Source of the DNA: Actinokineospora baliensis
GTDB taxonomy: Bacteria > Actinomycetota > Actinomycetes > Mycobacteriales > Pseudonocardiaceae
Assembly (NCBI RefSeq): GCF_016907695.1
Contig: NZ_JAFBCK010000001.1
Span: 2,783,001-2,847,000, forward strand
Length of the DNA stretch: 64,000 nucleotides
Direction of reading: 5' to 3'
The position numbers and the translations under genes are program-made. The notes beneath the pieces are model-generated. The model had not been told where the DNA came from. It saw only the letters and a program-made list of their open reading frames with translations, and did not search any database. This document shows, piece by piece, positions 8,410-34,877 of the stretch (its first letter is position 1; every line of letters starts with the position of its first letter).

Positions 8410-9927
8410 ATGAATCGCCACCTCGCGCGGTTCGCGACCGCCGTCGCGACCGCGAGTGTGCTGACCGCGACCGGAGCGGGCCTGGCCGCCGCCGACCCCG
8501 CCGACCACTCCCCAACAGCCGGGCACGTCCGCGAACTCGCCGCCGCCTACACCGACCTCGCCACCGCCACGACCGACGAGGCCAGGCTCCCCGCCGTAGC
8601 CGACCTGCGCCTGGCCCTCAACCACATCCGCGGCTGCGGCGAAACCACCGCCGCCGACGCCGCCGACACCAAGGCCGCCGAGGTCGCCCGAATCTTGCCG
8701 ATCCCAGGCCCGATCAACCCCCTCCTCCTGGCAGGCCTGCTGGACCTCGTCCACACCCTCCTCAACACCCTCACCGGCGGCCTCCCCCTGCCCGGAACCC
8801 TGCCCACCCCCGGCACCTTGCCGATCCCGGGCGGTCTCCCGATCCCCGGTGGCTTGCCCATCCCAGGTGGTCTCCCGATCCCGGGCACTCTCCCCACTCC
8901 CGGCACCTTGCCGATCCCGGGCGGTCTCCCGGTCCCCGGTGGCTTGCCCATCCCAGGTGGTCTCCCGATCCCGGGCACGTTGCCCACTCCCGGTGGCTTG
9001 CCGATCCCCGGCACTCTGCCGATCCCGGGCGGCCTCCCGATCCCGGGCACCTTGCCCATTCCTGGTGGTTTGCCGACTCCCGGCACTCTGCCCGTCCCTG
9101 GCGGTCTCCCGATTCCTGGCACGTTGCCGACTCCGGGTGGGCTGCCGATCCCGGGCACTCTGCCCATTCCCGGTGGCCTCCCAGTTCCCGACGCGTTGCC
9201 GATCACGAGTGGCCTGCCGATCCCCGGCACTCTGCCGATCCCGGGCGGCCTGCCGATCCCGGGCACCTTGCCCATTCCTGGTGGTTTGCCGACTCCCGGC
9301 ACTCTGCCCGCCCCTGGCGGTCTCCCGATTCCCGGCACGTTGCCGACTCCGGGAGGCCTCCCCAACCCCGGCACCTTGCCGACGCCGGGTGCTCTGCCGA
9401 TCCCCGGCGGACTTCCCATTCCAGGCACTCTGCCCACTCCCGGCGGCCTCCCCATCCCCGGCACGGTGCCGATCCCGGACACCCTGCCCACCCCCGACGG
9501 GTTGCCCATCCCGGATGTCCAGCCCGATCTCAACGGCACCGTCCCCAACCTGACTGACGTCCTGCCCGCCGAAGACGGCACCGTCCCCAACGTCACCGAT
9601 GTGCTGCCCGCTGAGGACGGCATCGTGCCCAACCTGACCGATGTCCTGCCCGCCGAAGACGGCACCGTCCCCAGCGTGACCGACGTCCTCCCCGCCGAGG
9701 ACGGCATCGTTCCCGGTGTGCTGCCGCCGTTGTCGGACCTGGTTCCGCCGGTCGCCGACGAGCTGACTCTGCTGCCCGCTGCCGTCAGCGATCCGCCGCT
9801 GGACGCCACGACCCCGGATACCGATTCCTTGCCGCTGTTGCCCGATCTGCCCCTGGACTCGCTCCCGGCGCTGGGCAGCCTGCCGAGCCTGCCCGGCTTC
9901 CCCGAGTTGGACCACCACCACGACTGA
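8410..9927 (+). CDS. Secreted protein with 41 Pro-rich hexapeptide repeats
   Basis: 505 aa from ATG 8410, with GGAGAGG upstream. Residues 1-28 are a Sec signal with an AlaAlaAla-Asp cleavage area. A helical domain (about 29-120, with one Cys in RGCGETT) precedes 41 uninterrupted hexads of the form [GT]LP[ITV]PG. Four copies of a 14-residue acidic unit (core TDVLPAEDG) and a Leu/Pro tail ending HHHD follow. There is no sortase motif and no C-terminal membrane anchor. The hexads suggest an extended or elastin-like rod. It stands alone. I do not recognise a family; a structural or surface role is inferred. Confidence 0.8.
   Translation: MNRHLARFATAVATASVLTATGAGLAAADPADHSPTAGHVRELAAAYTDLATATTDEARLPAVADLRLALNHIRGCGETTAADAADTKAAEVARILPIPGPINPLLLAGLLDLVHTLLNTLTGGLPLPGTLPTPGTLPIPGGLPIPGGLPIPGGLPIPGTLPTPGTLPIPGGLPVPGGLPIPGGLPIPGTLPTPGGLPIPGTLPIPGGLPIPGTLPIPGGLPTPGTLPVPGGLPIPGTLPTPGGLPIPGTLPIPGGLPVPDALPITSGLPIPGTLPIPGGLPIPGTLPIPGGLPTPGTLPAPGGLPIPGTLPTPGGLPNPGTLPTPGALPIPGGLPIPGTLPTPGGLPIPGTVPIPDTLPTPDGLPIPDVQPDLNGTVPNLTDVLPAEDGTVPNVTDVLPAEDGIVPNLTDVLPAEDGTVPSVTDVLPAEDGIVPGVLPPLSDLVPPVADELTLLPAAVSDPPLDATTPDTDSLPLLPDLPLDSLPALGSLPSLPGFPELDHHHD
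8779..9516 (+). repeat. 18-bp tandem repeats (41 units) inside the Pro-rich secreted protein gene
   Basis: 738 bp equals exactly 41 units of 18 bp with no indel. Each unit codes [GTA]LP-x-P-[GD]; a single unit reads ALPITS. G- and T-type units alternate through most of the array, suggesting amplification of a 36-bp pair. Longer identical blocks recur, for example the run coding GLPIPG-TLPTPG. Confidence 0.95.
9547..9714 (+). repeat. Four 42-bp repeats coding an acidic 14-mer
   Basis: Four in-register copies of N-[LV]-TDVLPAEDG-[TI]-VP (the last two begin N and S) directly after the Pro-rich rod. Two types (TVP and IVP) alternate, again indicating duplication of a two-unit block. Confidence 0.9.
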
Positions 9928-31793: not shown

Positions 31794-32468
31794 GTGCCAG
31801 ACCGACAACCGACCCGCTCCGGCGCGCCCTCGGGGCACGCGCCGGGGCCGACGCTTTGCCCGGATCCGGACGCCTCGGCGCCGGATGTGGTCGCTTCGCG
31901 CGCCCGGGCCGCCCCGATCCCGATCCCCGTACCGCTCCCGGTCGTCCCCTCGTGGGGCAGGCGCCGGGTGCTCCTGCTCAACACCACGTTCGAGCCACTG
32001 ACCGCGTTGTCGCTGCGCCGCGCCGTGGTCCTGGTCGTCTGCGGCAAGGCCGAGGTCGTGCACGGCGACCCGGCAGGCAAGGTCGTGCACTCCGCGACCT
32101 CGAGCGTGGTGATCCCCTCGGTGATCCGGCTCAGCAGCTACGTGCGCGTCCCCTACCGGGGTCGGGTGCCGCTGACCCGGGCCGGGTTGATGCACCGCGA
32201 CCGCTACCGCTGCGCGTACTGCGGTGGTCGGGCGGAGACGATAGATCATGTCGTGCCGCGCAGTCGGGGCGGGCAGCACACGTGGCATAACTGCGTGGCG
32301 TGTTGCGCCAGGTGCAACCACCGCAAGGCGGACAAGATGCTGTCGGAGCTGGGCTGGCGGCTGCGGGTGGTCCCCACCGCGCCGCGCGGCCCGCACTGGC
32401 GGCTGCTCGCAGGCGTGGTCGACGCTGACCCGCTGTGGCTGCCGTACCTCGGAGAGCCCGCCGCTTAG
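31794..32468 (+). CDS. HNH endonuclease (Rv2469c-like)
   Basis: 224 aa from GTG 31794, with GGAGG 10 nt upstream. A Pro-rich, probably disordered N terminus (about 1-50) precedes RRVLLLNTTFEPLTALSLRRAVVLVVCGKAEVV. The HNH core has zinc cysteines in RYRCAYCGG and CVACCARCNHRK, the catalytic His in TIDHVVPRSRGG and Asn in WHNCVACC. The family is common and usually of unknown target. By place it is the Rv2469c counterpart. It ends 29 nt from the convergent GTRVT-repeat gene. Confidence 0.9.
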   Translation: MPDRQPTRSGAPSGHAPGPTLCPDPDASAPDVVASRARAAPIPIPVPLPVVPSWGRRRVLLLNTTFEPLTALSLRRAVVLVVCGKAEVVHGDPAGKVVHSATSSVVIPSVIRLSSYVRVPYRGRVPLTRAGLMHRDRYRCAYCGGRAETIDHVVPRSRGGQHTWHNCVACCARCNHRKADKMLSELGWRLRVVPTAPRGPHWRLLAGVVDADPLWLPYLGEPAA

Positions 32469-32497: not shown

Positions 32498-33811
32498 TTA
32501 GGCGGCGGTGACGCGCGTGCCCGAGGTGACCCGGGTTCCCCTGGTCACCCGGGTGCCGCGCGTGACGCGGGTACCGCGCTCCTGCAGCGTGACGCGGGTG
32601 CCCCTGGTGACGCGAGTGCCGCGCTCGGCCGCGGAAGTCACGCGGGTGCCACGGGTGACTCGAGTCCCGCGGGTGACCCTGGTGCCGCACTCCATAAGAG
32701 AGGTGACGCGGGTTCCCCGCGTGACTCGCGTGCCACGAGTGACCCGGGTGCCGTTGACGAGCTCCGCCGTCACCCGCGTGCCCCGGGTGACCCTGGTGCC
32801 GCGGGTGACCCGCGTTCCGCACTCGAGCAGCGACGTGACGCGCGTGCCCCGGGTGACCCGAGTGCCGTTGATGAGTTCTGAGGTGACCCGGGTTCCCCTC
32901 GTGACCCGGGTGCCGTTGATGAGTTCAGCCGTGACTCGGGTTCCGCGGGTGACTCGGGTGCCGCGGGTGACTCGGGTGCCGCGGGTGACTCGGGTTCCGC
33001 GGGTGACGCGGGTGCCGTTGATGAGTTCCGCTGTGACTCGGGTGCCGCGGGTGACTCGGGTTCCGCGGGTGACGCGGGTGCCGTTGATGAGTTCCGCTGT
33101 GACTCGGGTGCCGCGGGTGACTCGGGTTCCGCGGGTGACGCGGGTGCCGTTGATGAGTTCCGCTGTGACTCGGGTGCCGCGGGTGACTCGGGTTCCGCGG
33201 GTGACGCGGGTGCCGTTGATGAGTTCCGCTGTGACTCGGGTTCCGCGGGTGACGCGGGTGCCGTTGACGAGCTCCGCCGTCACGCGAGTGCCCCTGGTGA
33301 CCCGGGTTCCCCTCGTCACGCGGGTGCCGTTCTCGAGCAGTGCTGTCACCCGCGTCCCACGCGTGACCCTCGTGCCGCACTCGAGCACCGACGTGACGCG
33401 CGTTCCCCTGGTGACCCGCGTCCCGCGCTCCGCCGCCGTCGCCCTGGTGCCGCGGGTGACCCAGATACCCAGGTCGGATCCCGTGACCCGCGTGCCGCGT
33501 TCCACGGCGGTGACGCGGGTTCCGCGGGTGACCCTGGTGCCCCTGTCCGCCCCGGTCACGCGGGTTCCCCTGGTGACTCGCGTGCCGCGCTCCGCCGCGG
33601 TCACCCTGGTGCCGCGGGTGACCCGGGTGCCGCGCCCGGCCGAAATCCCCCTGGTGTGCAAGGTCACCTCCGTGTCACCCTGGAGGGCGGTCACCCGGGT
33701 CCCGCGGGTCACCCGGGTCCCCCGTCCCGCCAGGGCACCGCCACCCGGTTGCGTGTAGTCGGCCATCTGGGTGATGATCATTGCCGCGTCGTGGGAAGCG
33801 ATGGTGTACAT
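32498..33811 (-). CDS. GTRVT hexapeptide-repeat protein, apparently undescribed
   Basis: 437 aa from ATG 33811, preceded by AGGAGG at 8 nt and a promoter-like pair at 33884-33912. Residues 1-29 are unique (MYTIASHDAAMIITQMADYT then QPGGGALAG). The rest is about 51 copies of GTRVT, mostly joined by Arg into GTRVTR hexads, in blocks of two to five. Blocks are separated by 3-5-residue spacers AAE, GAD, AVE, ALLEN, AELVN, AELIN, SLLEC. Composition is about 90 Arg against about 20 Glu, hence very basic, with three Cys, all in spacers. There is no signal peptide or membrane segment. Thr/Val/Arg alternation suggests stacked beta strands (solenoid or fibre). It interrupts a conserved gene order. Confidence 0.75.
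   Translation of the reverse strand: MYTIASHDAAMIITQMADYTQPGGGALAGRGTRVTRGTRVTALQGDTEVTLHTRGISAGRGTRVTRGTRVTAAERGTRVTRGTRVTGADRGTRVTRGTRVTAVERGTRVTGSDLGIWVTRGTRATAAERGTRVTRGTRVTSVLECGTRVTRGTRVTALLENGTRVTRGTRVTRGTRVTAELVNGTRVTRGTRVTAELINGTRVTRGTRVTRGTRVTAELINGTRVTRGTRVTRGTRVTAELINGTRVTRGTRVTRGTRVTAELINGTRVTRGTRVTRGTRVTRGTRVTRGTRVTAELINGTRVTRGTRVTSELINGTRVTRGTRVTSLLECGTRVTRGTRVTRGTRVTAELVNGTRVTRGTRVTRGTRVTSLMECGTRVTRGTRVTRGTRVTSAAERGTRVTRGTRVTLQERGTRVTRGTRVTRGTRVTSGTRVTAA
32507..33724 (-). repeat. 18-bp tandem array of the GTRVT gene, with 66-bp higher-order units
   Basis: The 18-bp unit codes GTRVTR on the minus strand. Spacers are 9 or 15 bp, so the frame is always kept. At 33012, 33078 and 33144 three consecutive 66-bp units (spacer AELIN plus three GTRVT) appear identical base for base, which points to recent unequal crossing-over. 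Elsewhere the units differ mostly at synonymous third positions (CGA/CGC/CGG, GGC/GGA/GGG). Confidence 0.93.
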
Positions 33812-33883
33812 GGGGTGGCCTCCTGAGGGCGGTTGCGCATCGAGAGAAGCGGAGGAGTCGTTTCGCAAGGGCCGTACAGGTGA

Positions 33884-33912
33884 AAGCTATGACTCAGATC
33901 GGTAACCGACAA
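33884..33912 (-). promoter_or_regulatory. Predicted promoter of the GTRVT-repeat gene
   Basis: On the minus strand TTGTCG (33912-33907), a 17-nt spacer and TAGCTT (33889-33884) form a sigma-70-like pair, leaving an untranslated leader of about 65 nt before ATG 33811. The rest of 33812-34147, 336 nt, has no supported gene and must also hold the promoter for the 34148 gene (TACCGTAT just upstream of its GTG). Confidence 0.4.
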
Positions 33913-34147: not shown

Positions 34148-34393
34148 GTGACGCTCGTCGAGACCCTTCTCGTCTTCGCGGCGGTCCCGCTGGCCATCTA
34201 CGGCGTGATCGCCCTCATGACCCTGCGCGAGAGGTTCGCCAAGGCACCCCGGTACCGCCCCGGCCAGGAGTGGGAGCACGAGCCGGTGTGGTGGACGGCC
34301 AACCCCGCCGGCCTGGGTTCCGCCCACGCGGGCACCGCCGAGGCGGGCACCCCGGTGCACACGGCCAAGGGAGGAGCCCGTGGTGGCTGGTGA
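34148..34393 (+). CDS. Small single-span membrane protein
   Basis: 81 aa from GTG 34148, probably leaderless or nearly so. One hydrophobic segment, LVETLLVFAAVPLAIYGVIA (residues 3-22), is followed by a soluble tail with PRYRPGQEWEHEPVWW, a motif seen in actinobacterial small membrane proteins next to DUF5130 genes. Its end overlaps the next start by 14 nt, so the two are coupled and may form a complex. The function is unknown. Confidence 0.75.
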   Translation: MTLVETLLVFAAVPLAIYGVIALMTLRERFAKAPRYRPGQEWEHEPVWWTANPAGLGSAHAGTAEAGTPVHTAKGGARGGW

Positions 34394-34877
34394 CCTCGTC
34401 CGGCACGAGCCGGACGTCCTGGTTGAGGACCCCGAGCACGGCTACGGCGCCGTCCGCACCATCAGCGGCCGGGTGTCGGTCGCCAAGCAGCGCGAGGTGG
34501 CCCCGCCGGGCCTCCCGTTCTCCACGGTCGCGCTGACCCGCCTCGACGAGGCCCTCACCCTGTCCTCCCGCGCGACCGGCATCGGTTTCAGCGTGTACCT
34601 GGGCGACCTGGGCGCGGACACCCGCGCCCGCGCCGAGGACCTGCACGCCGCCATCGGCGCGAACTCGGCGGAGTCGGTCCTGCTGGCGGTGTCCCCCGGC
34701 CAGCGCAGGGTCGAGATCGTCACCGGCACCGAGTCCGCCCGCAGGCTCACCGACCGAGGCTGCAACCTGGCCGTCATGAGCATGGTCGCCTCCTTCAAGG
34801 AAGGCGACCTGGTCGGCGGCCTGGTCAGCGCCCTCCGCATGCTCGCCGACCAGGCGGGCCACGCCCCCAAGCACTAA
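34380..34877 (+). CDS. DUF5130 family protein (Rv2468c-like)
   Basis: 165 aa from GTG 34380 (GTG 34383 also possible), with GGAGG 5 nt upstream. The fold has the TPM-domain-like pattern ALTRLDEALTLSSRATGIGFSVYLGDLG, then EDLHAAIGANSAESVLLAVSPGQRRVEIVTGTESARRLTDRGC. No membrane segment, so membrane linkage would come through the coupled upstream protein. The place beside pepN corresponds to Rv2468c. The biochemical role is not known. A strong terminator follows at 34891. Confidence 0.8.
   Translation: MVAGDLVRHEPDVLVEDPEHGYGAVRTISGRVSVAKQREVAPPGLPFSTVALTRLDEALTLSSRATGIGFSVYLGDLGADTRARAEDLHAAIGANSAESVLLAVSPGQRRVEIVTGTESARRLTDRGCNLAVMSMVASFKEGDLVGGLVSALRMLADQAGHAPKH

Follow-up and report, generated by a model that had tools for sequence, protein, structure and literature searches.

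The main finding of this study is that a minus-strand gene at positions 32498-33811 of the 64,000-nucleotide window analyzed here, from the genome of Actinokineospora baliensis (all coordinates are window positions), belongs to a vertically inherited, single-locus gene family encoding arrays of one short pentapeptide, and that these pentapeptide cores are held to their own genome's version by strong purifying selection. The family, which is real and apparently undescribed, poses a question: up to 60 copies are kept nearly letter-perfect within a genome, yet in a sister lineage the whole array can have switched to another pentapeptide. The explanation that we tentatively prefer, reasoning from sequence, is that the protein may be a short-lived cytosolic array of peptide ligands read sequence-specifically by a co-evolving partner, with a tail that would mark it for ClpXP. 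Whether the answer is a novel partner for peptide recognition or a novel signal, it would, if true, be new biology. The gene is conserved at a single locus in most genera of Pseudonocardiaceae, a family that includes producers of medicinal antibiotics (rifamycin and vancomycin-type compounds), and its native dialects are ready-made specificity controls.

Pentapeptide cores and purifying selection

In A. baliensis the frame runs uninterrupted from an ATG start, encodes 437 residues plus a stop and contains exactly 51 exact GTRVT copies, in agreement with the roughly 51 repeats estimated by a first-pass annotation made from the DNA letters. These copies are spelled by 35 distinct 15-mers, in which codon positions 1 and 2 are fixed, save that Arg is written CGN (46 copies) or AGG (5 copies); this CGN/AGG swap is silent on the minus strand but exchanges Arg for Leu in the frame that is open on the opposite strand. 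The annotation had also proposed that changes between units are mostly synonymous and that selection acts on the protein, and both proposals are borne out by a synonymous excess among the repeats of each genome, summed over many genomes. Over 103 collected loci, 1789 GTRVT units are written in 288 DNA versions, and codon differences from the own-genome core consensus amount to 3561 synonymous and 31 non-synonymous, in a count restricted to pentamers at most one residue away from GTRVT, which favors synonymous changes. For 147 unique proteins with at least eight copies, covering eight core types, the corresponding numbers are 4753 synonymous versus 41 + 82 non-synonymous differences, a count that admits stretches two residues off and in which the 82 include chance matches.

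Other PENTAPEPTIDES occupy the same genomic slot: apparently negative genera hold the same design with a different core. The general core form across the family is [GS][TVI]R[VI][TSHNE], and in addition to GTRVT we found GTRIT (L158, L168), GVRVT (L167, L188, L189), GVRIH (L157, L160, L244), GIRVN or GVRVN (L159, L227-L229), SVRIT (L161, L162, L222 and others), GVRIS (L163, L165, L170, L171 and others) and GVRIE (L164). Between genera, position 2 is T, V or I, position 4 is V or I and position 5 is T, S, H, N or E, and the Arg at position 3 is constant in all nine core types. Every protein follows one layout, a leader of about 15-53 residues and then 2-60 copies of one pentapeptide joined by free spacers. 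The leader is exactly 25 residues long in 82 of 153 unique N termini (10-60 residues) and has weak positional preferences (T3, T6, P7, Q9, A10, T14, R15, S16); homologues sharing the N terminus, as anticipated by the annotation, were thus found, but the relationship at the N terminus is weak. Spacers are little constrained in length or sequence, with one-residue spacers, which give hexads, predominating in GTRVT members only and spacers of mostly three to five residues in SVRIT and GVRIS members. The residue before the core is mostly R, A, M or C for GTRVT and D for SVRIT. Two complete minimal members, L159 (49 residues) and L229 (55 residues), have three cores each, end on a core and have no further repeats downstream. 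Net charge varies between +80 and -10 within the family: GTRVT members have a median of +18, or a median of +15.8 per 100 residues (duplicates retained, n = 119), and SVRIT orthologues in the same slot have a median of -3 (range -10 to +25, n = 23).

Within a genome the cores are nearly uniform. Among pentapeptides matching [GS][TVI]R[VI][TSHNED] in 158 proteins, 2539 of 2548 are identical to their own genome's type, and there are only 46 further copies one residue off. Mixtures of V and I at position 4 (three cases) or of T and S at position 5 are nearly absent within genomes, though both alternatives occur between genera. This uniformity is not merely the result of recent copying because the DNA of the cores is diverse within each genome, with a median unique fraction of 0.53-0.87 depending on the type. 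In a tree of three flanking proteins the core types are clade-structured, with several weakly supported deep nodes. L167, which has GVRVT cores, pairs at a support of 0.977 with L237, which shares its genus code but bears GTRVT: here a whole array has switched core between close relatives. The 12 copies in L167 are written in 5 DNA versions and separated by 4 different spacers, the pattern that a recent rebuild through duplication of a few changed units would leave, and such a rebuild is one way in which a switch can spread. This change of the pentapeptide across whole arrays between genera, and the ssrA-like tail that many members carry, are the two most telling features, and both lay beyond the reach of the first-pass annotation.

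Genomic slot, promoter element, and C-terminal tail

In a set of 61 genomes, homologues of the window protein were found in 27, including all 16 genomes of its genus in that set (its own among them), and with all congeneric genomes matching, the window array is not a chance occurrence. A scan of 84,980 species genomes with an exact back-translated GTRVT-x-GTRVT-x-GTRVT pattern matched 109 stretches, 102 of them in genera that we take to belong to Pseudonocardiaceae (Amycolatopsis, Prauserella, Saccharomonospora, Actinokineospora, Actinophytocola, Kibdelosporangium and others). Of the remaining seven, two are contigs of one Actinomycetes metagenome-assembled genome (MAG), one belongs to an Aeromicrobium MAG, one is a record of Rhodococcus rhodnii and three are single, chance-like matches. 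By our count, the array was read in 36 genus codes. The 103-protein set leaves out L036, L061, L107 and L123 (other organisms), L116, L138, L110, L073, L055, L064 and L083 (incomplete, split or lying at the edge of a locus), L013 (without a GTRVT frame) and L139 (broken).

At the 103 loci, the array gene is flanked by a divergent pair, a CtaJ-like gene and a gene for a DUF5130 protein, and by a convergent HNH endonuclease gene. In the window these are an 81-residue open reading frame (ORF) with no Pfam match at 34148-34393 (+), which is presumably CtaJ, the DUF5130 protein at 34380-34877 (+; PF17174, 7.2e-38) and the HNH endonuclease at 31794-32468 (+; PF14279, 2.5e-12). The CtaJ-like gene is present at 97 of the 103 loci, DUF5130 at 94 and HNH at 97, three of the latter overlapping the end of the array gene. 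All six loci without the CtaJ-like gene are on stretches that start less than 300 bases ahead of the array gene; of the six without HNH, four are on stretches that end within 160 bases of it, and L059 and L095 have room yet show no match. L166 and L169 have an empty slot, with 60 and about 130 bases between their HNH and CtaJ-like matches. A PepN aminopeptidase gene is close by in 82 of the 103 loci and is also present in the array-less L166, L169 and L172.

Reading frames of homologues are intact, as the annotation expected, with one clearly broken copy among the pattern-scan loci, L139 (Saccharomonospora sp. CUA-673), whose array is split over two frames. A Kibdelosporangium-like array gene occupies the same slot in L117, the Rhodococcus rhodnii NRRL B-16535 record (JOAA01000003.1), which may be mislabeled. 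In L123, the Aeromicrobium MAG (JALRCA010000207.1), two adjacent ORFs have an apparent signal peptide followed by repeats of the GTRVTSGTRVTAADL type and, at the C terminus, a crystallin-like part, with weak Pfam matches only; here the same pentapeptide occurs outside the family, in an actinomycete protein that is apparently secreted. L278, from genome G630 of the same order and another family, has an array-like frame of 456 residues in which the general core form occurs seven times, as GVRVS.

Upstream of the gene, the annotation had pointed to a Shine-Dalgarno sequence, an ATG and a promoter-like pair. AGGAGG is indeed found at 33819-33824 (-), and a six-base Shine-Dalgarno plus ATG (score 7) is found in 91 of 103 loci. 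The promoter is plausible by eye, with a putative -35 TTGTCG at 33907-33912 (-) separated by 17 bp from a putative -10 TAGCTT at 33884-33889 (-); among 49 upstream regions of the family, similar -10 hexamers are found, and many have cTTGTC or TTGTTC at -35. A conserved element, TTTCACCTGTACGGCCCTTGC, lies at and just 3' of the -10 hexamer (33865-33885, -), which has one site in the A. baliensis genome at up to three mismatches. The element, also written TTTCACCTGTACGG, has its TTCACC start 69-74 nucleotides before the ATG (52 in one genus) and is exact in 100 of 138 unique upstream regions. When sought as TTYACCTRTACGGNNCTTGYG at up to two mismatches, it was found in 283 out of 390 genomes from the family that we take to be Pseudonocardiaceae, usually at one site each; the control, the pattern read backwards, was found in scattered genomes only. 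It is rare in the large genus g5 (5 of 62 genomes by our count, a chance-like rate), g47, g3 and g57, and absent from g4 and a few other genera; a tally of 41 of 46 genera with the element includes chance-like two-mismatch sites. The near-absence in g5 would correspond to a loss or to branching before the gene's origin. At loci found through the element, an ORF was sought 40-200 nucleotides downstream, and L166, L169, L190, L207, L242 and L245, which have no array, were rejected as chance element sites or empty slots. The promoters of L033, L052, L100, L102, L121 and L127 showed no fit to the element at up to five mismatches and were omitted from the 168 analyzed; a shifted version of the element is visible upstream of L033 and L102. 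No fold conserved among family members was found in the untranslated region.

At the other end of the gene, LAA is the C terminus of 60 and AA that of 86 of 159 unique members, as opposed to 0 and 4 of 207 background ORFs, which are crude calls (at least 120 residues, G+C at third codon positions above 0.88) on 20 stretches of two genomes. Fisher p values are 8e-26 for LAA and 9e-34 for AA, uncorrected for relatedness. The LAA tails match [FYL][ASTVDEQ]LAA in 50 of 60 cases, the typical form being [QR]x[DE][FY]xLAA, and resemble the tags encoded by the transfer-messenger RNAs (tmRNAs) of the host family, 12 of 12 of which end in [FY][AQDE]LAA, e.g., AKTNSQRDFALAA and AEPKSQREFALAA. This natural mimic of the ssrA tag is encoded by 12 DNA versions and present with six of nine core types; among the members that lack it are most with GVRIS (15 of 19) and all those with GVRVN, GIRVN or GVRIE. 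Many members share a C-terminal Ala-Ala with the host tag, and the window copy ends in AA, not LAA. In this tail they resemble natural ClpXP substrates with a C-terminal Ala-Ala, and we know of no such substrate that is a peptide array. The C-terminal Ala-Ala is described as the key ClpXP determinant (PMC7652416), and the two C-terminal alanines of sigma-AntA of Streptomyces albus as essential for degradation by ClpP (PMC9775585).

Candidate functions of the arrays

Near-exact cores, free spacers and whole-array switches point to a sequence-specific reader, and the tail would add fast control of amount. In the mechanism that we envisage, each core would be a short peptide ligand, read singly and exactly, while still in the chain, by the peptide-binding site of a cytosolic partner. 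The central Arg and the adjacent beta-branched residues would provide binding, positions 1, 2 and 5 would define a lineage dialect that co-evolves with the partner, and core copy number would set avidity or dose. Its synthesis would start from a housekeeping-type promoter that carries a dedicated operator-like element, and ClpXP would clear the protein by way of the Ala-Ala tail; ligand levels would in this way closely track synthesis and proteolysis. Several points weigh against this explanation. No partner was found, and the flanking genes persist where the array gene is missing. The degron-like tail is not universal, as the window copy ends in VTAA and 73 of 159 members lack an AA end. The cytosolic location comes from leaders judged by eye, in which no export signal was visible (they are polar, with no hydrophobic core) and on which no signal-peptide predictor was run. 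The uniformity count uses our own general pattern, the counts over relatives are not phylogenetically independent, and uniform cores could also reflect stacking in identical, in-register ladders.

A related but doubtful idea is that the protein is a self-destructing chain of identical pentapeptides, fixed within a genome, that switches wholesale between genera together with its reader, with ClpXP releasing or metering an internal or cell-to-cell signal. We also consider it unlikely that the array is a multicopy precursor of a genus-specific intracellular or secreted pentapeptide signal, fed to ClpXP by its LAA tail and read after release. Multicopy peptide precursors, such as that of yeast alpha-factor, do look like this, repeating identical cores many times per chain with free spacers and in versions that differ from genus to genus; the ssrA-like tail, in addition, offers a route to proteolysis. 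The Phr peptides of Bacillus (RRNPP), which are single-copy secreted pre-pro-peptides, resemble the cores in being Arg-containing and five residues long, but the arrays differ from them in having 2-60 copies, an ssrA-like tail and no export signal by eye. By analogy only, PhrF (QRGMI) and PhrC (ERGMT) show that a peptide of five residues can be read this exactly: both contain Arg, they differ at positions 1 and 5, and they are described as having separate receptors (PMC3601957). However, no signal peptide is visible by eye, the residues flanking the cores do not form one protease site, and the Arg within the core is itself a trypsin-like site. The neighbors that were profile-scanned (HNH, the 81-residue ORF, DUF5130, PepN, MscS and a globin) include no exporter or receptor and no modifying enzyme of the type that acts on ribosomally synthesized and post-translationally modified peptides, more distant and unlinked genes lying outside that search, and the nearby PepN occurs at array-less loci as well.

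It is also rather unlikely, in our estimation, that the arrays are structural beta-solenoids or beta-prisms, rods or scaffolds in which the cores are short strands with positions 2 and 4 facing inward and an Arg ladder facing outward. The best AlphaFold2 model of a 123-residue hexad-type Amycolatopsis member is predicted to be a regular beta coil with a predicted template modeling score of 0.59 and a block predicted local distance difference test (pLDDT) score of 76-83 over residues 41-110, but mean pLDDT falls from 67.8 to 44.3 over the five models, the model of the window protein is poor (55.9, 0.40) and structure searches gave no significant match. The hexad-type members fit [STAV]x[LIV], which we take to be the formula of hexapeptide repeats, and the predicted coil would be a further likeness to left-handed beta-helices; the annotation had noted a periodicity resembling theirs without an exact fit, but in most core types the spacers do not give hexads, and the array core is invariant rather than degenerate. 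Hexapeptide-type profiles score below cut-off (LbH_EIF2B 13 bits versus 54 for the window protein, P0001; Hexapep 26.6 versus 27 for L164), and all profile matches of L043 are far below it. DUF2345 (PF10106, cut-off 30.7) matches L232 at 77.6 bits (E 1.1e-21) and L220 at 34.3, with L164 (28.7) and L158 (20.8) below cut-off and no match for P0001 or L043, both GTRVT. SVRIT and GVRIS arrays score against the DUF2345 beta-prism repeats of VgrG, but the array proteins are entirely leader plus array, with no other VgrG domain, and the profile matches seem to be driven by repeat composition because relatives also pass the cut-offs of unrelated families (DUF6799 for L158; ChapFlgA and Glyco_hydro_65C for L232; Pirin_C_2 and an autotransporter barrel for L220). 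The NCBI name of P0002, an SVRIT array from Lentzea sp. NPDC042327, "DUF2345 domain-containing protein," is probably a composition-driven annotation. Three cores, as in L159 and L229, are too few for a coil, which counts equally against the basic solenoid put forward by the annotation, and a fold alone poorly explains near-exact cores within a genome. That solenoid was to bind nucleic acid or polyphosphate, and an Arg-rich polyanion binder is in keeping with the very basic GTRVT members and the position-3 Arg invariant in nine core types. We regard it as highly improbable since SVRIT orthologues in the same slot have a negative median charge, which also argues against it as a general function; electrostatic binding needs no exact identity at the other four core positions, and electrostatics cannot explain near-exact cores in a family whose charge varies so widely. 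The annotation's ice- or surface-binding idea lacks the export signal, judged by eye, that would back such a role. As for a functionless coding minisatellite, open by chance in a GC-rich genome, growth of tandem arrays by slippage and the open opposite strand would suit it, but it is barely conceivable given the synonymous excess, the single clearly broken copy and the conservation of promoter element, Shine-Dalgarno sequence, N-terminal positions, C-terminal tail and slot.

The annotation knew of no described family, and this still holds: no Pfam or NCBIfam profile reaches its cut-off with the window protein, and no description of a pentapeptide-array family was found in open-access PMC papers, a search that did not extend to subscription papers or to most preprints. 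Pentapeptide repeat proteins (PF00805, MfpA/Qnr) are defined by the motif A(D/N)LxX, which is absent from the arrays. The arrays further differ from them in having spacers between units and no PF00805 match, either for P0001 (E up to 1) or for six relatives (E up to 0.1).

Features of the window array

The coding sequence at 32498-33811 (-) is defined by its open frame, its Shine-Dalgarno sequence and the congeneric homologues. Its unique N terminus, noted by the annotation, is present as a leader at 33722-33811 (-), but core mapping places the first core at residue 31, which gives 30 residues instead of the 29 proposed. The array proper spans 32507-33721 (-), with spacers that are mainly R or A[EL]LxN/LLEC/AAER-like. 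The repeats had been described as hexads in blocks with spacers of three to five residues; the repeats are there, but spacers range from one residue (mostly R) to five and more, and clean hexads do not run throughout, being degenerate at residues 42-60 and about 111-128. A recent duplication inside the array, at 32967-33263 (-), consists of 4.5 copies of a 66-bp unit that are 98% alike, and the C terminus, Ala-Ala-stop, is at 32498-32506 (-). The strand opposite the array is open for 416 codons at 32508-33758 (+) (VTRVPRVTRVPL...), probably as a by-product of repeat composition. Elsewhere in the window, a second tandem array at 8779-9715 consists first of 36- to 144-bp units, which by eye read much like PGTLPIPGGLP, and then of 42-bp units.
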